Of a stretch of 64,000 nucleotides of DNA, positions 38,670 through 54,150 are shown piece by piece. How positions within the stretch are numbered: the first letter of the stretch is position 1; every line of letters starts with the position of its first letter. Below the pieces are notes generated by a model that made no database searches, had not been told where the DNA came from, and was given only the letters and a program-made list of their open reading frames with translations. This DNA is from an uncultured Propionivibrio sp. (GTDB taxonomy: Bacteria > Pseudomonadota > Gammaproteobacteria > Burkholderiales > Rhodocyclaceae), in NCBI RefSeq assembly GCF_963666255.1, contig NZ_OY762657.1:372001-436000 (forward strand). The letters run 5' to 3'. The translations under genes and the position numbers were made by a program.

Positions 38670-39451
38670 GGTTTCCCCTTGTACGGTGCGAACCAGCCGA
38701 GCCCGTCCTCGGTCTTGCCGCGCGGGCGATACTCGCAGCCGACGTAACCGGTGTATCCGGAATCGTCGAGCAACTGGTAGAGGTGCGGGAAGTTCAGCTC
38801 GCCTTCGTCCGGCTCATGCCGGTCGGGTACGCTGGCAATCTGGATGTGGCCGATATGCGGGGAGTATTTCTGGAAGGTCTTGGTCAGATCGCCTTCCATG
38901 ATCTGTGCATGGTAGAAATCCATCTGCACCTTCAGGTTCGGCGCGCCGACTTCCTCGCGAATCGCATGGCCGTCAGCTTGCATGCTGAGGAAGTACCCCG
39001 GCATGTCACGGCTGTTGATCGGTTCGATCACCAGCGTCAGCCCGTGCCTGGCCAGTTCCCCGGCGGCATGGCGCAGGTTCTCGACATACACCGCCCGATG
39101 TTGCGCCCGGTCGGCGCCGGCCGGGAAGAGCCCCGCCATCGCATGGATCGTCGGCGTGCCCAGCGACAGCGCATAGTCGATCGCCTTCGCGACACCGGCA
39201 CGGAATTCGGCTTCGCGTCCGGGAATCGACGCCATGCCCCGTTCACCCGCTGCCCAATTCCCCGGCGGCATGTTGAAGAGCGCGTTCTTCAGCCCGTTGT
39301 CCTTGAGCCAGGCCGTCACTTCCGCGACCGTGTAGTCGTACGGAAAGAGAAATTCAACCGCCTTGAATCCCGCCTTCGCCGCCGCCGCAAAGCGCTCCGG
39401 AAACGGCACTTCGGTAAACATCATCGACAAGTTCGCTGCAAATTTCGGCAT
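38666..39451 (-). CDS. otnI: 2-oxo-tetronate isomerase (hydroxypyruvate isomerase family)
   Basis: A 261-residue TIM-barrel isomerase beginning [17 protein letters not shown], the family opening. Metal and catalytic residues sit in [32 protein letters not shown] and [11 protein letters not shown]. The fold is that of hydroxypyruvate isomerase. In this gene order it corresponds to OtnI, which interconverts 2-oxo-tetronate and 3-oxo-tetronate. The stop overlaps the denD start (ATGA). Confidence 0.9.
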
Positions 39452-39470
39452 TTTCTTTCCTTTCCCAGTC

Positions 39471-40127
39471 TCAAATATCCAGTTTGAATGCGGTTTTCAG
39501 TTCGTCGATCTGCGCCGCGTTCAGGCAGTTCGTCGCCCGCCCCTGCAGCAGCAGGAAGATCTTCGCCGTCTCTTCGAGCTCCTCGCTCGCGTAGATCGCC
39601 CCTTCCAGGTCCGGACCCGACACCACCGGACCGTGGTTCGACAGCAGCACCGCGCTGTGCTTCGCCGCCAGCCCCCGGATCACGTCGCCCAGCGCCTTGT
39701 CGCCCGGCCGGTGGTACGCCACCAGCGGCAGCCGCCCGATCTTCATGACGAAGTACGGCGTCAGCGGCGGCATGCAACTGTCCGCATCCAGACCCGCCAG
39801 GCACGACACCGCCGCCGAGTGCGTCGAGTGCAGGTGCACGATCGCCCCCGCCTGCGGCCGCACTTCGTACATCGACCGGTGCAGGAAGGCTTCCTTCGAC
39901 GGCGCATCGCCCGCCAGCACCTGTCCGTTCCAGTCCAGCTTCGAGATCCGCGCCGGGTCGAGTTCGCCCAAGCACGAGTTCGTCGGCGTCAGCAGCCAGC
40001 CGTCTTCCAGCCGCACGCTGATGTTGCCGCTGCTCCCCGCCGTCAGCCCGCGCTCGTATAACGACCGCGAGAGTCGCGCGATCTTGTCGCGTTCGCGCGT
40101 TTCCGCGCTTTGAATGTGTGCACTCAT
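39471..40127 (-). CDS. otnC: 3-oxo-tetronate 4-phosphate decarboxylase (class II aldolase family)
   Basis: A 218-residue class II aldolase/adducin-type enzyme. I chose the start [15 protein letters not shown] because it overlaps the otnK stop as ATGA; an upstream ATG at 40145 is possible. It has the phosphate loop [11 protein letters not shown], the zinc-binding VHLHSTHS and the downstream NHGPVVSG. In the OtnK/OtnC pathway it decarboxylates 3-oxo-tetronate 4-phosphate to dihydroxyacetone phosphate. Coupled translation with the kinase fits sequential reactions. Confidence 0.9.
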
Positions 40128-41404
40128 GCTGACAGCTTGCTCCACGCTTTAAGGAAGAAGTCCGGCGTGCCGAAGTTCCCCGATTTCAATGCCAGCGCCA
40201 GCGGCTTCTCCCGCGCTTCGCCGCCGATGCCCGTCGTCCATGGCACGCCCGGATCGATCTCCGGCCCGATGCGCAGACCGCTCACGCCCAGCGCTTTCAC
40301 CACCGCGCCCGAGGTCTCGCCGCCGGCGACGATCAGTTGCCCGACGCCCTTGGCCACCAGCCCTTGCGCGATCTTCGCCAGACAGTCTTCGACGAGGCTC
40401 CCCGCCGCTTCGCTGCCGAGTTGCGCCTGTACTGCTTTCACCGCTTCCGGCGCCGCCGTCGCGTAAATCAGGATCGGCTCACAGCCGAGCTTGTCCGCCG
40501 CCCAGGCCAGCGCGGCCGCGGCAACGTCCTTGCCTTGCGCCAGCTCGAACGGATCGACGTTGAAGGCCGGGCATTTTTCGCGCATCGCCGCGACCTGTCC
40601 CTGCGTCGCCACCGAGCAGCTGCCAGAGATCACCGCCCGCGCCCCGCCCGTCGCCGGCAGGGCATCGGCCACCTGACCTTCGGCCAGCAGCCCCGCCTTG
40701 CGGAAATTCTGCGGCAGGCCCAAGGCGACGCCCGAGCCCGCCGTCACCAGCGGCATCCCGGCACAGGCCGCGCCGATCGCCAGCAGGTCCGCGTTCGAGA
40801 TCGCATCGGTCACCGCGAAGCGACAGCCGTCCGCTTTCAGTTGCGCAAAGCGCGCCACAATCGCTTCGGCGCCCCGGCTCACCACCGCCGTGTCGACCAG
40901 CCCGACCTTGCCCTGCACTTGCGCCTGCAGCACTTTCACCAGGTTCGATTCGGTCATCGGTGTCAGCGGGTGATGCCGCATCCCCGATTCCGACAACAAA
41001 CCATCGCCGACGAACAGGTGCCCCTTGTAGATCGTCCGGCCATTCACCGGAAACGCCGGACAGGCGATCGTGAAGTCCGAGCCCAGCGCCGCCAGCAGCG
41101 CTTCCGCCACCGGCCCGATATTCCCCTTCGCCGTCGAGTCGAAGGTCGAGCAGTACTTGAAGTAAATCTGCCGGCAGCCCGCCCCCTGCAACCACTTCAG
41201 CGCCGCCAGCGATTCTTCCACCGCTTCCGCCGCCGGCGTCGTCCGGCTCTTCAGCGCCACCACCACCGCATCAACATCGTCTCCGATCGGCCACGTCGGC
41301 ACCCCGATCGTCTGAATCGTCCGCATTCCCGCCTTCACCAGCATCCCGGCCAGATCCGTCCCGCCGGTGAAATCGTCCGCGATGCAACCTAACAATAGCG
41401 CCAT
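40124..41404 (-). CDS. otnK: 3-oxo-tetronate kinase (four-carbon acid sugar kinase family)
   Basis: A 426-residue DUF1537-type kinase. The N-terminal domain begins LLLGCIADDFTGGTDLAGML with the catalytic Asp pair, and the C-terminal nucleotide-binding domain has VAGGETSGAVVKALG. It phosphorylates 3-oxo-tetronate at the 4-position using ATP. The adjacent decarboxylase, isomerase and dehydrogenase genes make this assignment much firmer than the family alone. It follows the DctM gene by 26 bases. Confidence 0.92.
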   Translation of the reverse strand: MALLLGCIADDFTGGTDLAGMLVKAGMRTIQTIGVPTWPIGDDVDAVVVALKSRTTPAAEAVEESLAALKWLQGAGCRQIYFKYCSTFDSTAKGNIGPVAEALLAALGSDFTIACPAFPVNGRTIYKGHLFVGDGLLSESGMRHHPLTPMTESNLVKVLQAQVQGKVGLVDTAVVSRGAEAIVARFAQLKADGCRFAVTDAISNADLLAIGAACAGMPLVTAGSGVALGLPQNFRKAGLLAEGQVADALPATGGARAVISGSCSVATQGQVAAMREKCPAFNVDPFELAQGKDVAAAALAWAADKLGCEPILIYATAAPEAVKAVQAQLGSEAAGSLVEDCLAKIAQGLVAKGVGQLIVAGGETSGAVVKALGVSGLRIGPEIDPGVPWTTGIGGEAREKPLALALKSGNFGTPDFFLKAWSKLSA

Positions 41405-41430
41405 GTTCTAGTCCTGAAGGATCGTGGTCA

Positions 41431-42714
41431 TTATGACAGCCACTTGGCCGGCACGGTGACGAGTTTGGGGAAGAAGACGAGCAGGAACATCAGCACGGTC
41501 TCGGCGAGCAGGAAGGGCCAGACGCCCTTGATGACGTTGTCGAGTTTCTCCTTGCCGACCGCCGCCACGACGTTGAGCACCGTCCCGACCGGCGGCGTCA
41601 GCAGGCCGATGGCATTGTTCATGATGAACAGCACGCCGAAGTAGTACGGATCGATCCCCGCCATCTTCACCACCGGCACCAGGATCGGACCGAGGATCAG
41701 CACCGTCGGGATCAGGTCCAGCGCCGTCCCGACGATGATCACCAGGATCGTGATCACCAGCATCAGCACCATCTGGTTGCCCATGAACGGCTTGAGCAGC
41801 TCGATCGTCTGCGCCGGAATGTCCGCGATCGTGATCAGCCATGCCGAGACCATCGCGCAGGCGACCAGGAACATGATCGTGCAGGACGTCTTCAACGCCG
41901 ACAGCATCAGGTGCGGCACCCTCCGGTAATCGAGTTCGCGATAGACGAAAAGACCGGTGAAGAGAGAATAGAAGACGGCAACGACCGCCGCTTCGGTCGG
42001 CGTGAACACGCCCGCCTTCATCCCGCCGATGATGACAAACGGCAGAACCAGCGCCCAGATGCCGTTGCGCAAGGCCGTCAGGAAACGCCCCAGCTCGAAG
42101 CCGCGCTGAGCCGGTCCGCCCGGCTGCTCCTTCTTCGCCACCAGCCACCAGGTCACCGCCAGCGTCACCGCCATCATCAGCCCCGGGAAAATACCGGCCA
42201 TGAACAGCTTGGTGATCGACAGCTGCGTCGTCACGCCAAAGACAACCAGCGGAATCGACGGCGGCACCACCGGCGCGATACACCCCGCCGAAGCAATCAG
42301 ACCGGCCGAACGCGGCACACTGTAGCCGGCATTGCGCATCATCGGAATCAGCAGGGCCGCCACCGCCGCGGTATCGGCCACCGCCGACCCCGAGATACTG
42401 GCCACCACCGCCGCCGTGATGATCGCGACATAACCGAGACCGCCGCGCACGTGACCAATCAGCGCGTCGGCCACTTCGACAATGCGCTTGGAAAGACCGC
42501 CGGCATTCATCAGCTCGCCGGTCAGCATGAAGAAAGGCACCGCCATCAGCGGATAGTTGTTGGCGCCTTCGAGCAGATTCTGCGCAATGATCTGCGTGTC
42601 GAAGTTGTCCATCTGCAGCATCAGCGCAACGCCGCAGATCAGCAGCGAGAAGGCGATCGGCGCACCGAGCGCCATCGCGCCCAGCAGGGAGAAGAGAAAA
42701 GTCGCAATGGTCAT
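41431..42714 (-). CDS. dctM: TRAP transporter large permease (DctM family)
   Basis: A 427-residue multi-helix permease beginning MTIATFLFSLLGAMALGAPI. It has PFFMLTGELMNAGGLSKRI, ASISGSAVADTAAVAAL and the conserved CIAPVVPPSIPLVVFG. With the DctQ and DctP products upstream it should import L-threonate or D-erythronate. It lies between dctQ and otnK in the same transcription unit. It is clearly diverged from the permease at 26735, so the two systems are separate transporters. Confidence 0.95.
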   Translation of the reverse strand: MTIATFLFSLLGAMALGAPIAFSLLICGVALMLQMDNFDTQIIAQNLLEGANNYPLMAVPFFMLTGELMNAGGLSKRIVEVADALIGHVRGGLGYVAIITAAVVASISGSAVADTAAVAALLIPMMRNAGYSVPRSAGLIASAGCIAPVVPPSIPLVVFGVTTQLSITKLFMAGIFPGLMMAVTLAVTWWLVAKKEQPGGPAQRGFELGRFLTALRNGIWALVLPFVIIGGMKAGVFTPTEAAVVAVFYSLFTGLFVYRELDYRRVPHLMLSALKTSCTIMFLVACAMVSAWLITIADIPAQTIELLKPFMGNQMVLMLVITILVIIVGTALDLIPTVLILGPILVPVVKMAGIDPYYFGVLFIMNNAIGLLTPPVGTVLNVVAAVGKEKLDNVIKGVWPFLLAETVLMFLLVFFPKLVTVPAKWLS

Positions 42715-42729
42715 GGTCGTCTTCTCCGC

Positions 42730-43230
42730 TTATTCGCCAACGCTGCCGCTGTACGGAATCAGCTCTTCCTTCGGCATCCGGCCCGTCAGTTGCCGCCAGA
42801 TCCCGTAACCGAGCACCAGCGCCATGCCGACGCTCGAAATGAACAATGCCGACTGGACGATCCCCATCGGAATGCCGGTCACCGGCGCATGGTCGTCCAT
42901 GCCGATGATCATCTGCTTCCAGGTCCCGTGCGCCAGCAGCAGGCAACAGATCAGCGTCAGCGAATCGGCAAGGAACCGGCAGATACGCTGCCCACGCTCA
43001 CCAAACTTCTCGACCACGCTGCTCATCCCCAGATGCCCGTGATCCTTCATCACGATCAAGGCCCCGATCAGCGTCAGCCACATGAAAAAGAAACGCGACA
43101 CTTCCTCCGAAAACACGATCCCCGAATTGAATCCATACCGCAGCACCACGTTCCCGAACACCAGCACCGCCATGATGCCGAACATCCCCACCAGAATCCA
43201 TTCGACCAGCTTTATCAGTTTCCCAAGCAT
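42730..43230 (-). CDS. dctQ: TRAP transporter small membrane subunit (DctQ family)
   Basis: A 166-residue membrane subunit. The start MLGKLIKLVEWILVGMFG is chosen because it begins directly at the first membrane helix; the frame stays open to an ATG at 43338, but that extension is Arg/Ala rich and untypical. The segment GIVFSEEVSRFFFMWLTLIG is characteristic. It pairs with DctM and sits 15 bases ahead of it. Confidence 0.9.
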   Translation of the reverse strand: MLGKLIKLVEWILVGMFGIMAVLVFGNVVLRYGFNSGIVFSEEVSRFFFMWLTLIGALIVMKDHGHLGMSSVVEKFGERGQRICRFLADSLTLICCLLLAHGTWKQMIIGMDDHAPVTGIPMGIVQSALFISSVGMALVLGYGIWRQLTGRMPKEELIPYSGSVGE

Positions 43231-43370
43231 TTCATATTCCCTCGTGTTCTGAACAGCGTCACGCCGACTGCGAACGGCAACAATGATTGATTTGGCGCCC
43301 CGTGCGACGGCGATCCGGGCTTCCCGCCTTGCCGGCACGTGCGCATTGCAACGATTGAGATGATGCCGAT

Positions 43371-43398
43371 CCGGCCCGCACAGTGGCTGGCGGGCCGG
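43371..43398 (-). promoter_or_regulatory. intercistronic hairpin between dctP and dctQ
   Basis: CCGGCCCGC (43371–43379) pairs perfectly with GCGGGCCGG (43390–43398) around a 10-base loop. It lies in the 196-bp gap downstream of dctP on the minus strand. No T-run follows, so attenuation or stabilisation of the dctP message is more likely than complete termination. Confidence 0.65.
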
Positions 43399-43426
43399 TC
43401 GTTCTATGCCAAAGGGCTAACCGGGA

Positions 43427-44446
43427 TCACTTCCGGATCTTGGCGATTTCCGCATTGGCTTCGGCCACGGTTTCGGCGCCGATTTCGGGGATGAAGCGAT
43501 CGATCACCGGCTTGATGCGCTCACGCATCTTGGCCATTTCGGCCGGCGTCACGGTCGTGAGCGTCATGCCCTTGGTCTTCTGCATGTCGGCAAGCTGGCC
43601 CGCCGCCAGGTCGCGATTCATCTTGCGCTCGTAGTCGCGTCCTTCGTAGCAGGCCGTGCGCATCATCTGCTGTTCTTTCGGTTCCAGCTTGTCCCAGAAC
43701 GCCTTGCTGACCAGGATGATATGCGGCGAGTAGGCATGGTTGGTCAGGCTGATGTACTTCTGGACCTCGAACATCTTGTTGGAATAGATGTTGGTGATCG
43801 GGTTTTCCTGCGCATCGACGGCCTTGGCTTCCAGCGCCGTATAGAGTTCCGGCATCGGCATCGGGATGGCATTGGCACCCATCGTCTTGAACGCGTCGAT
43901 ATAGACCGGGTTCTGCATGACGCGGATCTTCAGCCCGGACATGTCGTCCATGTTCGCCACGGGGCGCTTGCTGTTGGTCAACTGACGGAAACCGTTTTCC
44001 CAGTAGCACAGGCCGATCATGTTCTTCGAGGTCGTCAGGTCAAGCAGCTTCTGACCGAATTTGCCGTCGAGAATCGTGTCCGCTTCCTTCTCGTTCTGGA
44101 ACAGGAAGGGCAGGTCATACACCAGGAATTCCTTGATGATGGTCGCCACCGGTGCCGTCGCGACGATGGTCACTTCGAGCGTGCCGCCACGAACCGACGC
44201 GATCGTCGCCGTTTCGGAACCGAGCTGGCTGTTCGGGTACAGCTTGGCCTTGAACTTGCCGCCGCTTTGACGCGCCAGCGATTCGATCATCTTTGCCGCG
44301 CCCTGCGCGCTCGGGTGATCCTCGGGAATACCGATCGATACCCGCATATTGCGCTCAGGGGTGGTTTGTGCGCCAGCGAACGAGCAGAAGCCCGCCGCGA
44401 GGAGTGCTACGACAACCGTGCTCAACTTACGAAAACCTTGTGCCAT
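43427..44446 (-). CDS. dctP: TRAP transporter solute-binding protein (DctP family)
   Basis: A 339-residue periplasmic binding protein. The signal peptide (about residues 1–26) ends AGFCSFAGA. DctP motifs include IPEDHPSAQGAAKMIES, LKIRVMQNPVYIDAF with the ligand-binding Arg, and PMPMPELYTALEAKAVDAQENP. It should bind threonate/erythronate for the DctQM permease encoded next. A strong hairpin separates it from dctQ, probably giving excess binding protein. Confidence 0.94.
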   Translation of the reverse strand: MAQGFRKLSTVVVALLAAGFCSFAGAQTTPERNMRVSIGIPEDHPSAQGAAKMIESLARQSGGKFKAKLYPNSQLGSETATIASVRGGTLEVTIVATAPVATIIKEFLVYDLPFLFQNEKEADTILDGKFGQKLLDLTTSKNMIGLCYWENGFRQLTNSKRPVANMDDMSGLKIRVMQNPVYIDAFKTMGANAIPMPMPELYTALEAKAVDAQENPITNIYSNKMFEVQKYISLTNHAYSPHIILVSKAFWDKLEPKEQQMMRTACYEGRDYERKMNRDLAAGQLADMQKTKGMTLTTVTPAEMAKMRERIKPVIDRFIPEIGAETVAEANAEIAKIRK

Positions 44447-44585
44447 GATGAGTTTCCTTCTTGAATAGGTTTATGTATGGTGCGGATGACAGCAAATGGC
44501 ATTGACCCTTGATGACAAAGTGATGCATTGAAACGGATGCAGCGACAACTCGTGTTCTGGGTGAAACAAAAGGAAGGGGTGGTGC

Positions 44586-45491
44586 TTACTTCTTGGCGTC
44601 GGGCAACTTGATCGCCGGGAAGACTTTGATGACGGCCGAATCGTCCTCGCCACCGTGTCCGGCCGCCGAGGCCGACATGTACATCTGGTGCGCGGTCGCC
44701 GACAGCGGCAACGGGAAGACGTTTTTCTTGGCATAGTCGAGGACGATACCGAGATCCTTGACGAAGATATTGACGGCCGAAAGCGGCGTGTAGTCGCCGG
44801 CCAGAATGTGCGGCACGCGATTCTGGAACATCCAGGAATTGCCGGCACTGTTGGTGATCACCTCGTAAACCTGGTCGGGATCGGCCCCGGCGCGGATCGC
44901 CAGCGCCATCGCCTCTCCGGCCGCGGCGATATGCACACCGGCCAGCAACTGATTGATCATCTTGACTACCGAGCCCGGTCCGACCTCGTTGCCGAGACGA
45001 TAGACCTTGCCGGCGATGGCATCGAGCACATCCTCGCATTTGGCATAGGCCTCGGGCGAGCCGGAGGACATCACCGTCATTTCCCCGGCCATCGCCTTGG
45101 CGGCGCCGCCGGAAATCGGCCCGTCGATCATCAGGAGCCCGGCATCGGCGATGCGCTTGCCAAGGGCGCGGGCGAAGTCGGGCGACACCGTCGCGCTCGA
45201 AATGACGACCGTCCCCGGACGCATCTTCGGCACGGCGCCTTGCGCGCCGAACAACACCGCCTCGGTCTGATCGGCATTGACGACGACGCTGATCAGCACA
45301 TCAACGCGCGGCGCCATCTCTGCCGGCGACCCCGCAGCAACGCCACCGGCGTCGACCACTTTCTGCACCGCCTCGGCGCGTATATCACAGGCATGAACCT
45401 CGAAGCCTTCGCGCAGCAGCGACATCGCCACGCCCATCCCCATCGCCCCGAGGCCAATGACACCCACCGGTTTCTTGACGCTTGCGTTCAT
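44586..45491 (-). CDS. ltnD: L-threonate dehydrogenase (beta-hydroxyacid dehydrogenase family)
   Basis: A 301-residue NAD-dependent dehydrogenase. It has the Rossmann motif GVIGLGAMGMGVAMSLL, the substrate-binding DGPISGGAAKAMAGEM, the catalytic lysine in SVVKMINQLLAG and a helical C-terminal domain. By sequence and neighbours it corresponds to LtnD, which oxidises L-threonate to 2-oxo-tetronate for OtnI. Tartronate semialdehyde reductase is the nearest alternative. It is the first gene of the minus-strand operon 45491–37698, with a GntR operator about 150 bases upstream. Confidence 0.87.
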   Translation of the reverse strand: MNASVKKPVGVIGLGAMGMGVAMSLLREGFEVHACDIRAEAVQKVVDAGGVAAGSPAEMAPRVDVLISVVVNADQTEAVLFGAQGAVPKMRPGTVVISSATVSPDFARALGKRIADAGLLMIDGPISGGAAKAMAGEMTVMSSGSPEAYAKCEDVLDAIAGKVYRLGNEVGPGSVVKMINQLLAGVHIAAAGEAMALAIRAGADPDQVYEVITNSAGNSWMFQNRVPHILAGDYTPLSAVNIFVKDLGIVLDYAKKNVFPLPLSATAHQMYMSASAAGHGGEDDSAVIKVFPAIKLPDAKK

Positions 45492-45729: not shown

Positions 45730-46479
45730 ATGAACAGCGCCCCCCTCTTCAACGTCGAACCCATCGCAGTCACCGGAACACTGACTGACCGCGTCTGCGA
45801 AGCCCTGACCCAACTCATCGCCAGCGAAGACTTCGGTGCCGGCGCCCGGCTGCCGTCGGAGCAACAGATGGCGGGGCGTTTTGGCGTCAGCCGTACGGTC
45901 ATCCGCGAAGCCGTCTCGCGACTGAAATCGGAAGGGCTCGTCGAATCGCGCCAGGGCAGCGGCGTCTTCGTGCGCGAGCGCAACATCGACACCCCCTTCC
46001 GCCTCGACCCGGCGCTCATGGACTGCCGCCAGTCGGTCCTGCAGGTGATTGAACTGCGCCAGGCGCTCGAAGGCGAGATCGCGGCACTGGCGGCAACGCG
46101 GCGGACGCCGGCGCAGATGACGGCAATTCGCAACGCGCTTTCCGGCATCGCCGCGGCTGAAGCCGCGGGCGACGACGGCGTCGACGCCGATATCGCCTTC
46201 CACCGCAGCATTGCAGCGGCAACGGGCAATCCCCACTTTCTCGCGCTGACCGAATTCCTGTTCACTTTCCTCACCCATGCCACCCGCATCACACGCGGCC
46301 ACGAAGCGACCAAGCGCACGCTGTCGGCGCAGGTCAAGGATGAACACCAGCACATCGTCGACGCGATCGCCGCCAAGGACATCGAGGCCGCCCGCGCCGC
46401 CGCCCGGCAGCACATGGAATGCGCCATGCAGCGGCTCGGCTCGGCCAATCTCAGGAAGTTCCGGCAGCCGCCTGCCTGA
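45730..46479 (+). CDS. FCD-domain GntR-family regulator of the acid sugar operon
   Basis: A 249-residue regulator. The winged helix has ARLPSEQQMAGRFGVSRTV and GLVESRQGSGVFVRE. The FCD domain has ADIAFHRSIAAATGNPHFLA and VKDEHQHIVDAIAAKD, including metal-ligand His positions. It is divergent from ltnD, with a consensus operator between them. It is closely paralogous to the regulator at 52440 (nearly the same DNA-binding helix). Its inducer is probably a C4 sugar acid or pathway intermediate. Confidence 0.94.
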   Translation: MNSAPLFNVEPIAVTGTLTDRVCEALTQLIASEDFGAGARLPSEQQMAGRFGVSRTVIREAVSRLKSEGLVESRQGSGVFVRERNIDTPFRLDPALMDCRQSVLQVIELRQALEGEIAALAATRRTPAQMTAIRNALSGIAAAEAAGDDGVDADIAFHRSIAAATGNPHFLALTEFLFTFLTHATRITRGHEATKRTLSAQVKDEHQHIVDAIAAKDIEAARAAARQHMECAMQRLGSANLRKFRQPPA

Positions 46480-46527: not shown

Positions 46528-47562
46528 TCACGCATTTTCCAGGAACACCTTCAGCATTTTGCCGTCGCGGTTGTTTTCGAGATCACGGAACGCCTGCACG
46601 CCGTCCGCCAGCGGATAGGCATTCGTCATTAGCGGCGACACGTCGATCCGCCCTTGCTCCAGCAACTTCAGGCTGGCCTCGAAACCGGCAAAGTCATAGA
46701 CGTAGTTGCCCTTGATCGTCAGCTCCGTGGTGACGATCTTCTGCATATTCACTTCAACGAGCTTCTGCGCATTGCCGATCCACACGGCGGTACCGCCGAT
46801 ACGCAGGCAATCGAGCGAATTGGCCGCCGTCGCGCCGATGCCGACGGCTTCGATGGAAAAGTCGCAGAGCCGCCCGTCGGTCAAGGTCTTGACCGCCTCG
46901 ATGAAGTCGCCGGCGCGTGAATTGATCGTCGCATCCGCCCCCATTGTGCGCGCCACGTCGAGGCGGAAATCGGTCGCATCGGCGACGATGACGTGCTTCG
47001 CGCCGCGCAGCTTGAGCAAGGCCACGACCAGCAAGCCGATGGTCCCGGCGCCGATCACCAGGCAGTGCGCCGCCTCGGCGATCTCCTGGTCGTTCAGCTT
47101 CTGTACCGAACGATACGCCACGGCCAGTGGCTCGGTCATCGCCGCCTCGCTGAACGACAAGGTGTCGGCGAAAGGAATCAGGTATTTTTCTTCGACGGCG
47201 ACATACTCCGTCATGCTGCCGTCCTGATCGAGCACGCCCATGCAAATGCCGGAAGGACAGACGTTGACCATGCCCTTCTTGCAGAATTCGCACTCGCCGC
47301 AGAACGGTTTGGGAAAGATCACGACACGCGTCCCCACCGCGTGTTTCGCCTTCGCTGGCGCCTCGGCAATGACGCCGGCAACTTCGTGACCCATGATCAT
47401 CGGCGCCAGGCGCCGCCCGGTCTTGCCGAGGTAGCCCTCGACATCGGACCCGCAAATGCCATTGGCACGCACTTTGACGAGATAGCGCCCCGGCCCGGCC
47501 GTCGGCACTGGAATATCGCGAATTTCCATGGCTTTCTCGCCAACGTAATACAGAGCTTTCAC
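46528..47562 (-). CDS. zinc-dependent medium-chain alcohol/polyol dehydrogenase
   Basis: A 344-residue MDR dehydrogenase. Catalytic zinc ligands are Cys37 (NGICGSD) and His59-Glu60 (GHE); structural zinc ligands are Cys88, 91, 94 and 102; the cofactor motif is VIGAGTIGLL. It resembles the sorbitol/L-threonine/galactitol-phosphate dehydrogenase group. It is the last gene of the operon with dehydratase, aldolase and acetaldehyde dehydrogenase. It may oxidise the parent sugar or sugar alcohol that yields the dehydratase substrate; the substrate is not determined by the sequence. Confidence 0.85.
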   Translation of the reverse strand: MKALYYVGEKAMEIRDIPVPTAGPGRYLVKVRANGICGSDVEGYLGKTGRRLAPMIMGHEVAGVIAEAPAKAKHAVGTRVVIFPKPFCGECEFCKKGMVNVCPSGICMGVLDQDGSMTEYVAVEEKYLIPFADTLSFSEAAMTEPLAVAYRSVQKLNDQEIAEAAHCLVIGAGTIGLLVVALLKLRGAKHVIVADATDFRLDVARTMGADATINSRAGDFIEAVKTLTDGRLCDFSIEAVGIGATAANSLDCLRIGGTAVWIGNAQKLVEVNMQKIVTTELTIKGNYVYDFAGFEASLKLLEQGRIDVSPLMTNAYPLADGVQAFRDLENNRDGKMLKVFLENA

Positions 47563-47628
47563 CGCTGTCTCCTTGAAGAAAATACGAAAATCAAAGACAA
47601 GTGCGCGATCGCGTCCAAGTCTCCGGGG

Positions 47629-49314
47629 TTACGCCGGTGCGCGCAGGACGGCGCCGTCGGCGGCCGAGCTGGCGAGGCGCGAATAGATGCCGAGATAGCC
47701 ACGCGTAAACCGGGGCGGCGGCCGCCGCCACTCAGCCAGCCGCGCCGCGATTTCCTCATCCGGCACGTGCAGTTGCAGCAAGCCTTTGGGAATGTCGATG
47801 CTGATCCGGTCACCGTCGCACACTGCCGCCAGCGGACCGCCGTCGGCCGCTTCCGGCGAGATGTGCCCGACGAAACAGCCGTTGTTGGTGCCGGAGAAGC
47901 GCCCGTCGGTAATCAAGGCGGTCTTCTTGGCCAGCCCCATGCCATAGATGTATTTCATCGCCTTGAACATTTCGCGCATGCCCGGCCCGCCCTTGGGGCC
48001 CTCGTAGCGAATGACAACAACATCGCCAGCCTGGATGCGGCCGTCGAGGATGGCCGCTTCGGCCGCCTCTTCCGAATCGAACACCCGTGCCGTGCCTCTG
48101 AACACGTGCATGGCCGGATCGATCGCCGCCGGCTTGGTCACGGCCGTTTGCGGCGCCAGGTTGCCGCGCAGGATCGCGAGCCCCTTCTGGTTGCCGAACG
48201 GACGCTCCATGGTGTTGATGACGTCAGGATTGGCCGGGTACTTGTAACGATAGCCGGCAAGATTCTCTTCGACGCTGGCGCCGCTGACCGTCAGGCAATC
48301 GCGGTGCAGCAGCGGCAGGATCGCCTGCATGACGCGCGGCACGCCGCCCGCCTTGTAGAAATCCTCCATGTCGTACTTCGACGCCGGGTTGACCTTGGCC
48401 ACCTGCGGCGTCGATGCGCTCAGGCGGTCATACGCCTCCATCATCTGCGCGCCGCTGATATCGAGTTCAGCGGCAATGGCGGAAAGATGCAGCACCGCGT
48501 TGGTGGACCCGCCGGTCGCCATCAGCACGCGAATGGCATTTTCGAGGGCGGAGAAAGTGATGATCTTGTCCGCTGTCACCTGCTGCCGGACAAGCGCAAC
48601 GATGGCCTGACCGGTCGCCTCGCCGAGGCGGAAGCGGTCGTTATAGACGCCGGGGACCAGGGCCGCACCGGGCAGCGACATGCCCATGGCCTCGGCCATG
48701 CAACACATCGTGTTGGCGGTGCCGTAGAACGCGCAGGAACCGCAGGTCGGCCCGCAGGACTCCTCAAGGTCGCCGTAGGTCGCCGCGTCGATACGTCCGC
48801 TCTTGAGCATGCCAAGACCCTCGGAGAGCGTCGTCAGGTCGGACTTGCGGCCGTCGAATTCGACGCCGCCGAGCATCGGCCCACCCGGCAGCAGGATCGC
48901 CGGAATGCGCAGGCGCGCGGCGGCAATCAGCATACCGGGGACGATCTTGTCGCAGGACCCGAGCAGGACAATGCCATCGAGCCGGTGCGCCTCGACCATT
49001 ACCTCGATGTCATTGGCGATCAGGTCGCGCGAAGGCAGGATGAAATGCATGCCGGCATGCCCCTGCGCGGTGCCGTCGCAGGCAGCGATGACGCCGAACT
49101 CGGCGACCGTGCCGCCGGCCATGTGAATCCCCTTGCGCACGTGCTCGGCAACCTGGCGCAGGTTCGTATGACCGGGGACGAGATCGTTCCAGGAATTGGC
49201 GATACCGATGATCGGCCGCTCGAGATCGTCCTCCGAATAGCCGGCCGATTTATAGACGCTGCGATTGAAACACCATTCGGGCTTGCCCAGGATATCGCCA
49301 CTGCGAGTCGTCAT
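47629..49314 (-). CDS. IlvD/Edd-family dehydratase, probable sugar-acid dehydratase
   Basis: A 561-residue iron–sulfur dehydratase. Motifs are NSWNDLVPGHTNL, AACDGTAQGHAGM, LGSCDKIVPGM with Cys121-Asp-Lys, and ESCGPTCGSCAFYGTANTM with Cys187, 191 and 194. The VPGH version lacks the extra Cys of [2Fe-2S] pentonate dehydratases (TPCN), so an IlvD-like cluster is likely. It removes water from a 2,3-dihydroxy acid to give a 2-oxo-3-deoxy acid. Branched-chain amino acid synthesis is possible, but the aldolase/dehydrogenase neighbours favour sugar-acid catabolism. Confidence 0.85.
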   Translation of the reverse strand: MTTRSGDILGKPEWCFNRSVYKSAGYSEDDLERPIIGIANSWNDLVPGHTNLRQVAEHVRKGIHMAGGTVAEFGVIAACDGTAQGHAGMHFILPSRDLIANDIEVMVEAHRLDGIVLLGSCDKIVPGMLIAAARLRIPAILLPGGPMLGGVEFDGRKSDLTTLSEGLGMLKSGRIDAATYGDLEESCGPTCGSCAFYGTANTMCCMAEAMGMSLPGAALVPGVYNDRFRLGEATGQAIVALVRQQVTADKIITFSALENAIRVLMATGGSTNAVLHLSAIAAELDISGAQMMEAYDRLSASTPQVAKVNPASKYDMEDFYKAGGVPRVMQAILPLLHRDCLTVSGASVEENLAGYRYKYPANPDVINTMERPFGNQKGLAILRGNLAPQTAVTKPAAIDPAMHVFRGTARVFDSEEAAEAAILDGRIQAGDVVVIRYEGPKGGPGMREMFKAMKYIYGMGLAKKTALITDGRFSGTNNGCFVGHISPEAADGGPLAAVCDGDRISIDIPKGLLQLHVPDEEIAARLAEWRRPPPRFTRGYLGIYSRLASSAADGAVLRAPA

Positions 49315-49332
49315 CTGCCATTCTCCAAAATA

Positions 49333-50367
49333 TCAAACCGGCATCAGGCCGCGCGCTTTGGCCAGCGTAATGGCGGCATCCTCGATCATGTCCTCCTGCC
49401 CGCCGACCATGCGGCGCCGGCCAAGCTCCATGACGATCTCGCGCGCCGGAACGCCGTATTTCTGCTCGGCCCGCTTGGCAAACAGCAGGAACGAGGAATA
49501 GACACCGGCATAGCCGAGCGTCAGCGCATCGCGATCGACGCGCAGCGGCCGATCCATCATCGGCACGACGATGTCCTCGGCAACGTCCTGCGCCTTGAAG
49601 AGGTCGATACCGGTCTCGATGCCCATGCGGTTGCAGACGGCGACGAACACTTCCAGCGGCGTGTTGCCGGCGCCGGCACCGAGCCCGGCGGCGGCGGCAT
49701 CGATGCGGTTGGCGCCGCACTCGACCGCGGCGACCGAATTGATCACGCTAAACGACAGATTGTGATGCCCATGGAATCCGATCTCGGTATCGAAGCGGAG
49801 CGCTTCGCGCACCGCCGTGATCCGCGCGCGCACATCCTCAGGCAGCATGAAGCCGGCCGAATCGGTGACGTAGACGCAATTGGCGCCGTAGGACTCCATC
49901 AGCCGCGCCTGTTCGGCCAACTGCTCGGGCGAGGCCATGTGCGCCATCATCAGGAAGCCGACGGTATCCATCCCCAGGCGACGCCCCAGGCCGATATGCT
50001 GTTCCGATACATCGGCCTCGGTGCAATGCGTCGCGACACGGATCGTGCCGACGCCAAGCCCATGGGCCATGCGCAGGTGATCGACGGTGCCGATCCCGGG
50101 GATGAGCAGCGCCGACACCTTGGCTTGCCGCATCAGCGGGATGACCGCCGACAAATATTCCTCGTCGCTGAAGGCCGGAAAACCGTAATTGACCGAGGCG
50201 CCGCCGAGACCGTCGCCGTGCGTCACCTCGATCAGCCGGACACCGGCGGCATCAAGTCCGCAGGCGATCGCCCGCATCTCGTCGAGCGTGATCCGATGCC
50301 GTTTGGCATGCATGCCATCGCGCAGCGACATGTCATGAACCGTCACCTTTCTTGTCATCACGTTCAT
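49333..50367 (-). CDS. 4-hydroxy-2-oxovalerate aldolase (DmpG/MhpE family)
   Basis: A 344-residue class II pyruvate aldolase. [14 protein letters not shown] carries Arg16, Asp17 and His20, equivalent to the catalytic residues of DmpG/BphI. The metal-binding FHGHHNLS and the loop [12 protein letters not shown] are also present, followed by the C-terminal communication domain. It splits 4-hydroxy-2-oxo acids into pyruvate and an aldehyde that is normally channelled to the partner dehydrogenase. It overlaps that partner by 4 bases. No hydratase of the aromatic meta-cleavage pathway is nearby. Confidence 0.92.
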
Positions 50368-51287
50368 GGCGCCACTCCTTGCAGCGAGCGCGGATCAAAG
50401 CGCCCGGCGATGATTTCTCCGGCGAACATCTCGGCGGTACGCGCCGCTGCCGCCGTCATGATGTCGAGATTGCCGGAGTAACGCGGCAAATAGTCGCCCA
50501 GGCCCTCGACCTCAAGGAAGACGGAAACGCGCCGGTCGTCGAAGACCGGTCCATTGACGAGCTTGTAGCCGGGCACATATTGCTGCACCTCGGCCACCAT
50601 GGCCTGCACGGCGGCGGTAATGGCCGCAGCGTCGGGCGTCGAATCGGTCAGGCAATGCACGGTATCGCGCATGATCAGCGGCGGTTCGGCCGGATTGATG
50701 ATGATGATCGCCTTGCCTTTACGCGCGCCACCAATCTGTTCGATCGCCGCAGAAGTCGTCCGCGTGAATTCGTCGATATTCTTGCGTGTTCCCGGCCCGG
50801 CCGACTTCGACGAGATCGTCGCGACAATCTCGCCGTAGGCCACCGGTTGGACGCTCGCGATGGCGGCGATCACCGGGATCGTCGCCTGGCCGCCGCAGGT
50901 CACCATATTGACGTTCATCACCCGCTGCCCGAGCTGCGCGCGCAGATTGACCGGCGGCACGCAGAACGGCCCGATCGCCGCCGGCGTCAGATCGATCATC
51001 AGCACGCCGCGCGCCGTCAGCGTGTCGGAATTCTCGCGGTGCACATAGGCCGAGGTCGCATCGAAAGCGATCCGGATGTCATCGTCGCGCAGATGCGGCA
51101 ACAACCCGGCGATGCCCTGGTCGGTGGTCTTCAGCCCCATCTCCCGCGCCCGCAGCAATCCGTCGGACTGCGGATCGACGCCGACCATCCACACGGGCTC
51201 GAGCACCGTGCTGCGACGCAGCTTCATCATCAGGTCGGTGCCGATATTGCCGGAACCGATCAACGCACAGCGAATCTTCCTGCCCAT
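50364..51287 (-). CDS. acetaldehyde dehydrogenase (acetylating), DmpF/MhpF family
   Basis: A 307-residue enzyme. The NAD motif [10 protein letters not shown] is at the N-terminus and the catalytic Cys131 lies in [12 protein letters not shown]. The C-terminal half contains the dimer/aldolase contact region with [16 protein letters not shown]. It converts acetaldehyde to acetyl-CoA in complex with the aldolase encoded next. It is the first gene of the minus-strand operon and its stop overlaps the aldolase start. Propionaldehyde or glycolaldehyde are conceivable substrates, but acetaldehyde fits the family best. Confidence 0.93.
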
Positions 51288-51330
51288 GACCCCTCTCGTT
51301 CAGCGATGGTTGACTTGGCGACAGGGGGAT

Positions 51331-51354
51331 ATGCTAGGCAGGCATGACATACAA
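51331..51354. promoter_or_regulatory. adjacent LysR box and GntR-like site ahead of the aldolase operon
   Basis: ATGC-N7-GCAT (51331–51345) is a T-N11-A LysR-type box. Overlapping its right arm, ATGACATACAA (51344–51354) matches the operator at 45641 in 9 of 11 positions when read on the minus strand. Both lie in the divergent gap between the acetaldehyde dehydrogenase and lysR genes. Confidence 0.5.
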
Positions 51355-51446
51355 TTCAAATGAAATATTTCTAACAAAGGATGCCGTTTTTTATATCATT
51401 CCGGTCGCAGCTCCCTCGCCCATGATTTTCTTTGACATCTTCTGAC

Positions 51447-52388
51447 ATGACGGAAAAACTCCTCGCCGCCCGCGCGCGTTCGCGCCTCAAGACGCGGCAA
51501 ATGAACCTCCTGATCGCCCTCGACGAGGTACGCAATATCCATCAGGCGGCGATCGAGACGGACATGAGCCAACCGGCGGCCTCGAAGATGCTGAAGGACA
51601 TCGAGGCCATCTTCGGCGTGCCGTTGTTCGAACGACTGCCGCGCGGCGTCGCACCGACAATCTACGGCGACGCCGTCATCCGCCATGTGCGCATGTCGCT
51701 GTCCTGCCTCACGCAGGCGCAGGAAGCCGTCGCGACCTTGCAGGCGGGCCTCTCCGGGCAGGTCAATGTCGGCGCGATCATCACCCCCTGTCCGGCGCTG
51801 ATCCCGCAGGCGATCATCCGCACCAAACGCGAAGCGCCGAGACTGTGCATCAGCTTTGAAGTCAGCACCAGCAACGACCTGGTCGCCCGGCTCAAGCAGG
51901 GGCAACTCGATTTCGTGCTCGGCCGGCTGATGGAACAGGAAGACGAACCCAACCTCATCTACGAGGACCTGTCGGTCGAAACCGAGTGCGTCGTGGCGCG
52001 CCGCGATCATCCGCTGATGACGCGCCCCGACCTTCGCCTCGAAGACGTCGTCGATGCCGGCTGGATTCTTTCGGGCCGGGGCAGCATCCTGCGCAACCGC
52101 TTCGACATGATGTTCCGCCGCGCCGGCCTCGAAATCCCGTCGAACACCGTCGACACCACCTCGGTGCTGGTCGTCATGAACATGCTGATCCACACCGATT
52201 TCCTCCATATCGTTCCGGTCGACGTCGCTGCGTTCTACATGCGCAGCGGCGAGATCGCGCGACTGCCGATCGACGTTCCCTGCACCATGGAAAACTACGG
52301 CATCATCCAGCGCCGCGACCAACTGCCGGCGCCCGGTACGCACCTGTTGCTCAAGCATATCCGCGACGTCGCCGCCGAGATTTTTTGA
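51447..52388 (+). CDS. LysR-family transcriptional regulator (GbpR-like)
   Basis: A 313-residue LysR protein. The start MTEKLLAARARSRLK is the first ATG; an in-frame TTG at 51432 would add five residues. The helix-turn-helix is RNIHQAAIETDMSQPAASKM, followed by a coinducer domain with VNVGAIITPCPALIP and a type-2 periplasmic-protein fold. The closest group appears to be GbpR-like regulators of sugar uptake/catabolism. It is divergent from the acetaldehyde dehydrogenase operon and likely activates it through the LysR box at 51331. Confidence 0.92.
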   Translation: MTEKLLAARARSRLKTRQMNLLIALDEVRNIHQAAIETDMSQPAASKMLKDIEAIFGVPLFERLPRGVAPTIYGDAVIRHVRMSLSCLTQAQEAVATLQAGLSGQVNVGAIITPCPALIPQAIIRTKREAPRLCISFEVSTSNDLVARLKQGQLDFVLGRLMEQEDEPNLIYEDLSVETECVVARRDHPLMTRPDLRLEDVVDAGWILSGRGSILRNRFDMMFRRAGLEIPSNTVDTTSVLVVMNMLIHTDFLHIVPVDVAAFYMRSGEIARLPIDVPCTMENYGIIQRRDQLPAPGTHLLLKHIRDVAAEIF

Positions 52389-52439: not shown

Positions 52440-53210
52440 ATGGCCGCCACGCCTGAATTCAAGGTCGAAAAAATCGCCGTTGCCGGCTCGCTGACCGATC
52501 GTGTCTGCCGCACCCTGACTCAGCTGATCCGTGGCAAGGAGCTCCCTCCCGGCACGCGTCTGCCATCGGAAGCGACGATGGCCGAGCGTTTCGGCGTCAG
52601 CCGTACCGTCATCCGCGAAGCCGTTTCGCGACTCAAATCGGAAGGACTCGTCGAATCGCGTCAAGGCAGCGGCGTCTTCGTCCGCGAAGAAAACATCCAG
52701 TCGCCCTTCCGCATCGATCCGGCGACCATCGACTCGATCCCGAGCATTCTCAAGGTCGTTGAACTGAGGATGGTGCTCGAAAGCGAAATCGCCGCGCTTG
52801 CCGCAACCCGCAGAACCGCCGCGCAACTCGACGCCATCCGTTCCGCGCTCGGCCAGATCGGGATCGAGGAGAAGGAAGGCAAGGACGGCGTCGAGGCCGA
52901 CATCGCCTTCCACCGCAGCATCGCCGAAGCGACCGACAACCCGCATTTCCTGGCGCTGATCGAGTTCCTCTTCAATTTCCTGAAAAGTGCGACACAGGTG
53001 ACGCGCAGCTACGAAGCGACGAAAACGACGCTGATCAACGAAGTCAAGCAGGAGCACGCAGCCATCGTCGATGCCATCGCCCGGGGCGATGCCGAGGCAG
53101 CGCGTCGATGCGCCCGGCTGCACATGGAAGGCGCCTCGCGACGCCTCGCCACACTCGAATCAATGGACGACTGGCAGTCCCGGTCGCCCGACCCACGGGT
53201 CAGGACCTGA
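52440..53210 (+). CDS. FCD-domain GntR-family regulator
   Basis: A 256-residue regulator, clearly paralogous to the one at 45730. The DNA-binding part has TRLPSEATMAERFGVSRTV and the shared GLVESRQGSGVFVRE; the FCD domain has ADIAFHRSIAEATDNPHFLA and VKQEHAAIVDAIARGD. It follows the LysR gene by 51 bases and precedes a beta-hydroxyacid dehydrogenase by 37 bases. The near-identical recognition helix means cross-talk with the 45730 regulator at common operators is possible. Confidence 0.94.
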   Translation: MAATPEFKVEKIAVAGSLTDRVCRTLTQLIRGKELPPGTRLPSEATMAERFGVSRTVIREAVSRLKSEGLVESRQGSGVFVREENIQSPFRIDPATIDSIPSILKVVELRMVLESEIAALAATRRTAAQLDAIRSALGQIGIEEKEGKDGVEADIAFHRSIAEATDNPHFLALIEFLFNFLKSATQVTRSYEATKTTLINEVKQEHAAIVDAIARGDAEAARRCARLHMEGASRRLATLESMDDWQSRSPDPRVRT

Positions 53211-53247: not shown

Positions 53248-54150
53248 ATGAAACCACGCATTGCCTATCTCGGCCTCGGCGGCATGGGCGCCGCCATGGC
53301 GCGACGCTTTCTTGACGCCGCCTTCCCGCTGACCGTCTGGAACCGCAACGCCGACAAGGCGCGCGCGCTGGTCGACGCGGGCGCCCGGCTGGCCGCGACG
53401 CCGGCCGAGGCAGTGGCCGACGCCGACTTCGTGTTCACCATGGTCTCCGACGACCGCGCCATCGACGGCATCGCGTTTGGCGACACCGGTTTCCTGGCCG
53501 CGATGAAGCCCGGCAGCATCCACGTCTCGATGAGCACGATCTTGCCGACGACGGCGCGCCGTCTCGCCGAAGAACACGCGCGTACCGGCAGCGGCTACGT
53601 CGCTGCGCCGGTCTTCGGCCGGCCGAGTGCCGCTGCCGAGGGCATGCTCTGGATCTGCGTCTCGGGCAATGACGAAAGCAAGGCCCGGACGCTGCCGATC
53701 CTCGAACCGCTCAGCCAGAAGCGCGTCGACTTCGGGCAGGATCCCGGCGGCGCCAACATCGTCAAACTGTCGGGGAATTTCATGATCGCCGCGGCGATCG
53801 AATCGATGGCCGAAGCCTTCGCCTTCGCCGAAAAGAACGGCATCGACCCGGCGCAGATGAGCGACTTTTTCGGCAACAGCATCTTCGCCTGCCCGATCTA
53901 CAGGAATTATGGCCGCATCATCACGGACGCCGCGTTCGATCCGCCCGGCTTCCGTCTCGCGCTCGGCCGCAAGGACGTCGAACTCGTCGCCGAGACGGCA
54001 CGGATCAACGCCGTGCCGATGCCGATCCTGTCGACGCTGGTCAGCCGTTTCGCCGCGCGGGTTGCAAAGGGTGGCGGCGAACTCGACTGGACAAGCATCG
54101 CTCTCGACGTCGCGACCGACGCCGGTCTACCGCCGCGTGAAAAGCGCTAG
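53248..54150 (+). CDS. beta-hydroxyacid dehydrogenase (3-hydroxyisobutyrate dehydrogenase family)
   Basis: A 300-residue NAD(P)-dependent dehydrogenase starting MKPRIAYLGLGGMGAAMARR; a longer upstream frame lacks a ribosome site, while CGGAG lies just before this ATG. It has the cofactor motif GLGGMG, the substrate segment APVFGRPSAAAEGM (less canonical than GPVSGG), and the catalytic Lys in ANIVKLSGNFM. It may oxidise or reduce a C3–C5 hydroxy acid in the neighbouring pathways. It shares its last four bases (CTAG) with the convergent pabBC stop. Confidence 0.88.
   Translation: MKPRIAYLGLGGMGAAMARRFLDAAFPLTVWNRNADKARALVDAGARLAATPAEAVADADFVFTMVSDDRAIDGIAFGDTGFLAAMKPGSIHVSMSTILPTTARRLAEEHARTGSGYVAAPVFGRPSAAAEGMLWICVSGNDESKARTLPILEPLSQKRVDFGQDPGGANIVKLSGNFMIAAAIESMAEAFAFAEKNGIDPAQMSDFFGNSIFACPIYRNYGRIITDAAFDPPGFRLALGRKDVELVAETARINAVPMPILSTLVSRFAARVAKGGGELDWTSIALDVATDAGLPPREKR

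Follow-up and report, generated by a model that had tools for sequence, protein, structure and literature searches.

A DmpFG operon of Propionivibrio, probably fed by a dehydratase, that may serve a 5-deoxypentonate pathway

We analysed an operon in a 64,000-nucleotide stretch of DNA (the window; contig NZ_OY762657.1, positions 372,001 to 436,000) from an uncultured Propionivibrio sp. The operon lies on the minus strand, runs from 51287 to 46528, and encodes an acylating acetaldehyde dehydrogenase (DmpF), a 4-hydroxy-2-oxovalerate aldolase (DmpG), an IlvD/EDD-family dehydratase and a zinc dehydrogenase, in this order. We consider it probable, at roughly 60%, that the operon serves to degrade a 5-deoxypentonic acid by an oxidative route without phosphorylation. 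The dehydratase would remove water from 2,3,4-trihydroxypentanoate to give 4-hydroxy-2-oxopentanoate (4-hydroxy-2-oxovalerate), and would thereby replace the 2-oxopent-4-enoate hydratase of meta-cleavage pathways. DmpG would then cleave this product to pyruvate and acetaldehyde, a reaction that is established for its family and is predicted here from the family score and the unchanged pocket. DmpF would turn the acetaldehyde into acetyl-CoA with formation of NADH, as is established for its family. Dehydratase-fed DmpFG is apparently an undescribed variant built of known enzyme families; among the papers listed in the literature searched there was neither such an arrangement nor a connection of 5-deoxyribose with 4-hydroxy-2-oxovalerate, which is not proof of absence in print.

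The genes of the operon are closely spaced. The genes for DmpF (50364-51287; 307 amino acids) and DmpG (49333-50367; 344 amino acids) overlap by 4 bases, the dehydratase gene (47629-49314; 561 amino acids) follows 18 bases after that of DmpG, and the gene for the zinc-dependent medium-chain dehydrogenase of the sorbitol/threonine dehydrogenase type (46528-47562; 344 amino acids, GTG start) follows after another 66 bases. DmpF scored 465 bits against TIGR03215 (cut-off 282) and has the catalytic cysteine Cys131 within a CGGQAT motif, so that it is predicted to be of the DmpF/BphJ type. DmpG scored 549 bits against TIGR03217 (cut-off 286), and its communication domain, metal and catalytic residues and acetaldehyde pocket are likewise those expected of a DmpG/BphI-type aldolase. 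The dehydratase passed the NCBIfam cut-offs of TIGR00110 (652 bits against 618) and PRK00911 (665 against 644). Pfam also supports the assignments in the operon. The first-pass annotation had read these genes as a four-gene minus-strand operon, which is confirmed by the coordinates, the tight spacing and the scores of DmpF, DmpG and ilvD above curated cut-offs.

The dehydratase appears to be an accessory copy. It contains C79 in a Cys-Asp-Gly motif, C121 in a Cys-Asp-Lys motif and S474 in a TDGRFSG motif, and both IlvD/EDD Pfam domains were found; the Cys-Asp-Lys motif, the second motif with its base serine and the two domains place it in the IlvD/EDD superfamily as judged by sequence. At the place of Cys60 it has VPGH instead of PCN. 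Its score against the NCBIfam model for L-arabinonate dehydratase was 446 bits, with a cut-off of 882. We rejected the known pentonate-dehydratase subfamily (L-arabinonate, D-xylonate) on this score together with the lack of a Cys60-equivalent ligand and the presence of Cys-Asp-Gly. Its family scores class the enzyme with the dihydroxy-acid dehydratases and not with the known pentonate dehydratases. Three further IlvD/EDD places were found in the same genome. The copy at C2:777933 is the housekeeping dihydroxy-acid dehydratase (PRK12448, 1162 bits, cut-off 710); it likewise carries VPGH in the position of Cys60, and it lies far from the window dehydratase in the tree. Because of this separate copy, a role of the window dehydratase as the sole or housekeeping ilvD was rejected, and the case of a genome without another ilvD, which the first-pass annotation had named among the findings that would refute its proposal, is excluded. 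A further IlvD-type protein of the own genome (C3; L162:7420-9057) is 50% identical to the window dehydratase and, with 624 bits, stands barely above the ilvD cut-off of 618.

No 2-oxopent-4-enoate hydratase was found in the genome (G000) with two hydratase queries. The second query was run on four genomes; it matched in G415 and G402 and missed in G000 and G417, so the search works. The genome holds one DmpG above the cut-off. In G415, which belongs to the same genus, a DmpF and a DmpG that are 74% and 75% identical to the window pair lie between two hydratase-family genes and come after a gene that reads, by eye, like a ring-cleavage-product hydrolase. The identity of the window pair to DmpFG of Sporomusa and Pelosinus is 51-55%, and that of the dehydratase is 77-80%. 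In the related aldolase BphI, Leu-87 and Leu-89 set the aldehyde and Tyr-290 sets the 4S stereospecificity (PMC3962088). Taking the window DmpG to share the BphI numbering, we found R16, D17, H20, L87, I89 and Y290. L87 and Y290 are kept in all 25 dehydratase-linked and all 19 hydratase-linked DmpG rows, some of which are identical; among the eight rows with neither neighbour, L87 is present in six and Y290 in seven. Position 89 is I, L or V in every row. The pocket residues of BphJ appear to be conserved in the window DmpF as well. Since the pocket positions are unchanged and the window DmpG groups with hydratase-linked enzymes, the aldolase most likely still uses 4-hydroxy-2-oxovalerate.

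The combination recurs in other genomes. In a scan of named genomes, the best 80 of 385 loci with relatives of the dehydratase were kept; among these, DmpG was present in 22, DmpF in 22, and either or both in 23. DmpG was found at an E-value of 1e-100 or better in 17 of 274 genomes of the window's class. The position of DmpFG beside the dehydratase is thus not due to chance (23/80 against 17/274), although the taxa differ and the comparison is a rough guide. The linked loci come from both Pseudomonadota and Bacillota; among their hosts are Sporomusa, Pelosinus, a Telmatospirillum metagenome genome, Serratia, Symbiopectobacterium, Clostridiaceae, Lachnospiraceae and Erysipelotrichaceae. The window, Sporomusa, Pelosinus, Serratia, locus L056 and others share the order DmpF-DmpG-dehydratase; in Telmatospirillum and several Lachnospiraceae the genes are arranged differently or lie farther apart. 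The DmpG gene of Candidatus Symbiopectobacterium endolongispinus was found in two pieces (L040:6949-8000), as would be expected of a gene in decay.

Besides the window, 16 of the genomes surveyed in its class have DmpG; a hydratase-family gene lies within about 1.5 kb in ten of them and neither neighbour in six (one cut by a contig end), and a dehydratase of the window kind was found within this distance in none of the 16. Fourteen DmpG copies occur in 13 of the 28 genomes from the order to which Sporomusa acidovorans belongs: nine stand by a hydratase-family gene, four by the dehydratase and one by neither, and a single genome (G402) has both a hydratase-linked and a dehydratase-linked DmpG. 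The closest named genome is that of Propionivibrio dicarboxylicus, where locus L025 matches 11 of 14 window query proteins at 92-100% identity before a contig end cuts off the rest. When 40 whole genomes of relatives were searched, the window's own included, the full operon was matched only in the own genome and in G417. Among 101 genomes of the window's family, again with the own genome, the matches listed in other genomes at an E-value of 1e-100 or better were 38-42% identical, and G417 was not among them. All matches of the dehydratase in a plasmid search were below 60% identity (26 of 26 records). The neighbour tables of L025, L026, L033, L039 and L041 were made with tblastn, and the open reading frames picked in GC-rich relatives are partly antisense shadows.

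Phylogenetic trees separate the history of the dehydratase from that of the pair. In the dehydratase tree, 22 of the 24 DmpFG-linked rows (the window and 23 loci) fall within one set of 28 with an SH-aLRT support of 95. In a 40-row subset the corresponding set of 25, with a support of 100/98, holds 19 of 21 linked rows and six unlinked ones. The unlinked rows inside the clade are L026, L030, L034, L039, L041 and L047. The linked copies are scattered in the DmpG tree, where the link label changes eight times, each change forced by supported branches, against a mean of 17.8 in shuffled labels. Because of these counts, we regard the label as partly inherited and not of one origin. Without five long-branch rows there are seven changes; with linked and hydratase-linked rows only there are seven, or six without the long-branch rows; and with two copies from the genus added there are seven each for DmpG and DmpF. 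The window pair lies within a group of pairs from its own class, most of which are hydratase-linked, and the DmpG of the window and that of P. dicarboxylicus are joined (100/98) by a hydratase-linked DmpG from the same order as the window. Those of Serratia and Symbiopectobacterium group with copies from the window's class (98/98), of which three are hydratase-linked and one has neither neighbour. The sister copies of those from Lachnospiraceae are hydratase-linked, and that of Sporomusa acidovorans is among them. A single clade of all linked copies was rejected in the approximately unbiased test (DmpG, p 4e-7 with the five long-branch rows left out; DmpF, p 2e-32), as was one DmpG clade of the window and the Sporomusa group (p 8e-9). 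Vertical inheritance, or a single transfer of the whole operon shared with the Bacillota loci, was rejected, for the dehydratase fits it and DmpFG do not. There seem to be one dehydratase clade and DmpFG pairs of several lineages, which would mean that several bacterial groups made the pairing independently. The window pair was probably recruited from a hydratase-linked operon of the aromatic meta-cleavage type in its own lineage and came to stand next to a dehydratase whose clade also occurs in Bacillota. In other lineages the same type of dehydratase would have been combined with DmpFG of other descent.

Two known systems resemble the proposed first steps. SalM and SalH of salinosporamide A biosynthesis, and FdrC and FdrB of Streptomyces sp. 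MA37, likewise join a sugar dehydrogenase to an IlvD-family dehydratase, and are proposed to convert a 5-halo-5-deoxyribose to a 5-halo-4-hydroxy-2-oxopentanoate; we liken them by their descriptions (PMC7408626, PMC5947533). FdrC oxidises 5-fluoro-5-deoxyribose to the lactone and the acid (PMC5947533). SalH has been proposed to convert 5-chlororibonate to 5-chloro-4-hydroxy-2-oxopentanoate, FdrB is a putative dihydroxyacid dehydratase and analogue of SalH, and the fdrA and fdrB deletions no longer showed a fluorine signal that possibly stems from the fluoro analogue (PMC7408626). By analogy, the dehydration step of the window operon may have a proposed, as yet unproven, counterpart in SalH/FdrB. 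These systems differ from the operon in that they are biosynthetic or shunt pathways with a halogenated substrate and an SDR enzyme, whereas the window has a zinc dehydrogenase. The sections of the two papers that describe SalH and FdrB do not include DmpFG (PMC7408626, PMC5947533).

The replacement of the hydratase by the dehydratase, which the first-pass annotation had put forward, gains support from the one dehydratase clade beside unrelated DmpFG pairs, the unchanged acetaldehyde pocket and the proposed SalH/FdrB precedent. Since one dehydratase clade joins DmpFG of several lineages, the product of the dehydratase is probably the aldolase's own substrate, 4-hydroxy-2-oxovalerate, which would imply a 5-deoxypentonate. 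We infer 2,3,4-trihydroxypentanoate as the substrate because it is the simple dehydratase substrate that would give this product. Thus, the part of the earlier proposal that concerns the dehydratase in the hydratase's place stands, and the pathway logic is better supported than it could seem from the sequence alone; its 5-deoxypentonate would be the substrate by this reasoning.

Several observations weigh against a 5-deoxypentonate route. The dehydratase passes the ilvD equivalog cut-off (TIGR00110), so a branched-chain-type substrate is possible by sequence, and no gene in the window was assigned to making or importing a 5-deoxypentose. Two DmpFG-linked dehydratases (L038 and L056) fall outside the clade. 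The sample is uneven, as similarity to the dehydratase was the main source of linked rows and two taxon surveys were the main source of hydratase-linked ones. Repeated in-place replacement of DmpFG predicts the same trees as repeated assembly; replacement and assembly alike suggest that the functions of the dehydratase and DmpFG belong together. The nearest dehydratase outside Propionivibrio is that of Aliiruegeria (87% identical), which is divergent from a LysR gene (protein 73% identical), and this genome has no DmpG above the cut-off. The genomes of L034, L039 and L041, the latter two assembled from metagenomes, also have none above it. In Sporomusa acidovorans the dehydratase lies beside a DapA-type protein, and DmpFG is with the hydratase instead. 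Because of these genomes, the dehydratase may be able to act without DmpFG, on a broader or different substrate. A DapA-family protein also lies beside the module in the Serratia and Sporomusa loci, and it may be an additional aldolase that acts on a different 2-keto-3-deoxy acid.

The dehydratases in genomes without DmpG, together with the DapA-type neighbours and the RraA-type aldolase-family proteins near the Synergistales relative L047, could also be explained by a broad aldonate dehydratase that feeds several aldolases, with DmpG taking a 5-deoxy product in some hosts only. This explanation overlaps with the 5-deoxypentonate route and, given that 22 of the 28 clade rows are tied to DmpFG, widens it rather than opposing it; as a separate account we hold it to be rather unlikely. 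Less likely again is an ordinary pentonate pathway, in which a pentonate would be dehydrated to 4,5-dihydroxy-2-oxopentanoate, DmpG would release pyruvate and glycolaldehyde, and DmpF would form glycolyl-CoA. Non-phosphorylative pentose routes to pyruvate and glycolaldehyde are known (PMC6336799), known IlvD/EDD sugar-acid dehydratases are broad and take pentonates, hexonates and D-fuconate (PMC9795676), and DapA-type proteins adjoin the module in Serratia and Sporomusa. However, DmpG shares its hydrophobic aldehyde-pocket residues with the hydratase-linked enzymes, the window DmpFG groups with hydratase-linked pairs, and the dehydratase, with Cys-Asp-Gly and no Cys60-equivalent cysteine, is unlike the pentonate dehydratases and far below the cut-off of their L-arabinonate model (446/882 bits).

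The remaining two explanations are improbable. A redundant dihydroxy-acid dehydratase of valine and isoleucine synthesis, standing beside DmpFG without a shared pathway, would agree with the curated ilvD equivalog score. Against it, a housekeeping ilvD exists elsewhere in the genome, 22 of the 28 clade rows are beside DmpFG in two phyla with pairs of different descent, and an IclR-type regulator and MFS transporters beside relatives resemble KdgR/BhcR and galactonate carriers, all below cut-offs. Slightly more improbable still is a C4 acid route, from threonate or erythronate to 4-hydroxy-2-oxobutanoate, which DmpG would cleave to pyruvate and formaldehyde. It would suit the adjoining threonate/erythronate operon (LtnD, OtnK, OtnC, OtnI, DenD), but that operon already handles both C4 acids by a kinase route, and the DmpG pocket is unchanged. 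To our knowledge, formaldehyde is not expected as a substrate of DmpF.

In the zinc dehydrogenase, the Pfam domains ADH_N, ADH_zinc_N and Glu_dehyd_C scored above their cut-offs, and no NCBIfam assignment did: the top models are scyllo-inosose (IolM, 198/450), threonine (Tdh, 177/458) and idonate (IdnD, 175/469) dehydrogenases. No match to the enzyme at an E-value of 1e-10 was found in any of the other 22 loci with DmpFG outside P. dicarboxylicus, some of them cut by contig ends, and it lies outside the conserved core. Paralogues of 70-77% identity occur in the own genome, in G418 and in G425, where they stand next to a related LysR gene (57-61%); TRAP-type, transketolase-like or sugar-ABC genes, named partly by eye, are nearby. 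In the own genome (C1; L158:8395-11355), the paralogue (70%) and its LysR gene are followed by RpiB-like, GntR, class II aldolase-like and ribose-type ABC transporter genes, as read by eye. The zinc dehydrogenase was probably added to the operon from a cluster of the paralogue type. The idea in the first-pass annotation that it oxidises the 5-deoxy sugar is not supported, as it is unmatched in the 22 other loci and its paralogues are in other clusters. Our guess is that it makes the acid or its precursor from a polyol, a sugar or a keto-acid. In nine loci of Lachnospiraceae, Oscillospiraceae and Erysipelotrichaceae an SDR-family gene follows the dehydratase, as told by position and by the score of one member. 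This order resembles the FdrC-FdrB pair.

The divergent LysR-type regulator (51432-52388, plus strand), assigned by NCBIfam and Pfam, probably regulates the operon. The promoter region between it and the DmpF gene (51288-51431) and the one between LysR and IlvD in Aliiruegeria have a block in common in which 18 of 24 bases agree; the best of 60 block shuffles reached 17 of 24. When the regions were aligned locally with gaps, the result equalled the best of 300 shuffles. A conserved LysR operator was therefore set aside, and the likeness is suggestive only; the scan of the promoter region found no T-N11-A site with a full four-base palindrome. Farther to the right on the plus strand are a GntR/FCD-type regulator (52440-53210; NCBIfam and Pfam) and a beta-hydroxyacid dehydrogenase family protein (53251-54150, assuming a start at 53251 in a reading frame that opens at 53071), whose top model is 2-hydroxy-3-oxopropionate reductase at 172 bits, below the cut-off of 341. 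To the left, a GntR-type regulator that matches the same models as the protein at 52440-53210 lies on the plus strand (45730-46479) between two minus-strand operons. The left neighbour (37698-45491, minus strand) is an operon for breakdown of L-threonate and D-erythronate with its own TRAP transporter. It encodes L-threonate dehydrogenase (LtnD), the transporter, 3-oxo-tetronate kinase (OtnK), a class II aldolase-family protein (OtnC), 2-oxo-tetronate isomerase (OtnI) and D-erythronate dehydrogenase (DenD); LtnD, OtnK, OtnI and DenD are above curated cut-offs, OtnC was assigned by Pfam only, and two membrane TRAP genes were named by eye. Since this operon adjoins that of DmpFG and the dehydratase, the island looks like one for acid sugars.

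The best scores of transporters beside two relatives were with MFS proteins of the galactonate or 4-hydroxyphenylacetate type, below cut-offs, and L044 has sugar ABC systems as seen by eye. The transporters of the relatives suggest that an acid or sugar is taken up from outside and not salvaged within the cell; the first-pass annotation's hint at 5-deoxyribose from radical-SAM chemistry as the source is not supported. In three Lachnospiraceae (L044:1412-4609, also L059 and L065), genes for a glycyl radical enzyme and, by eye, an activase-like protein are divergent from the dehydratase-SDR-DmpFG genes; the glycyl radical enzyme of L044 is far below named cut-offs (278/678 bits at best). In Sporomusa (L027:11897-17137; similar in L028 and L029), a row of genes encodes an OtnK-type kinase, a second IlvD/EDD protein, a PanB protein (319 bits, cut-off 208) and an MFS protein; L030 has no MFS gene at the matching place. 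This row could serve to convert a C4 acid, by way of 4-hydroxy-2-oxobutanoate, into pyruvate and methylene-tetrahydrofolate. The Synergistales locus (L047:5075-9482), which is without DmpG, has two RraA/aldolase-family proteins and a TRAP transporter near the dehydratase.

The proposed 5-deoxypentonate route can be compared with four known systems. It shares the aldolase-dehydrogenase pair and the pocket residues with the lower meta-cleavage pathway (DmpEFG/BphHIJ/MhpDEF), and the copy from the genus is 74-75% identical. In contrast to that pathway, the window genome has no detected hydratase and a dehydratase in its place, and none of the four operon genes is a ring-cleavage gene. Disposal of 5-deoxyribose by DrdK, DrdI and DrdA, and the dihydroxyacetone phosphate (DHAP) shunt, produce acetaldehyde from a 5-deoxypentose (PMC6079011), as the window route would; these pathways phosphorylate, isomerise and give DHAP, whereas the window route would be oxidative, without phosphorylation, and would give pyruvate and acetyl-CoA. 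None of the four operon genes encodes a kinase or phosphorylase, an MtnA-type isomerase or a class II aldolase of the drd/DHAP-shunt type. One mtnA is found elsewhere in the genome (C2:422124), and its product acts in a different 5-deoxyribose route; no aldolase was seen by eye in its 1.5 kb flanks, to which the search for one was confined. Dahms-type non-phosphorylative pentonate routes have aldonate dehydration and pyruvate-forming aldol cleavage in common with the proposed route (PMC6336799), but their product is glycolaldehyde, and the known bacterial pentonate dehydratases, as described, are of the other cysteine subtype. IlvD of the E. coli type belongs to the same superfamily, with a score over the cut-off; the window copy is accessory, stands in a catabolic-looking operon and is far from the housekeeping ilvD of its own genome.

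In conclusion, we found that an operon of Propionivibrio joins DmpFG to a dehydratase that may supply it with 4-hydroxy-2-oxovalerate. A wider idea, which we put forward tentatively and at somewhat less than even odds, is that a widespread oxidative, phosphate-free pathway for 5-deoxypentose or 5-deoxypentonate arose repeatedly in anaerobes and gut bacteria from one dehydratase clade and local DmpFG pairs, yields pyruvate and acetyl-CoA, and is a possible second route for 5-deoxyribose derived from radical-SAM chemistry beside the DHAP shunt. If the 5-deoxypentonate route is real, the textbook aldolase-dehydrogenase pair of aromatic degradation would also serve the catabolism of sugar acids, and a group of proteins with ilvD scores would in fact dehydrate 5-deoxypentonates. 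Sporomusa and other anaerobes, as well as Lachnospiraceae, would possess an oxidative route for 5-deoxypentoses, compounds of a kind that radical-SAM cells can make. That DmpFG pairs of different descent were repeatedly joined to a single dehydratase clade would then be a clean case of pathway assembly by convergence.

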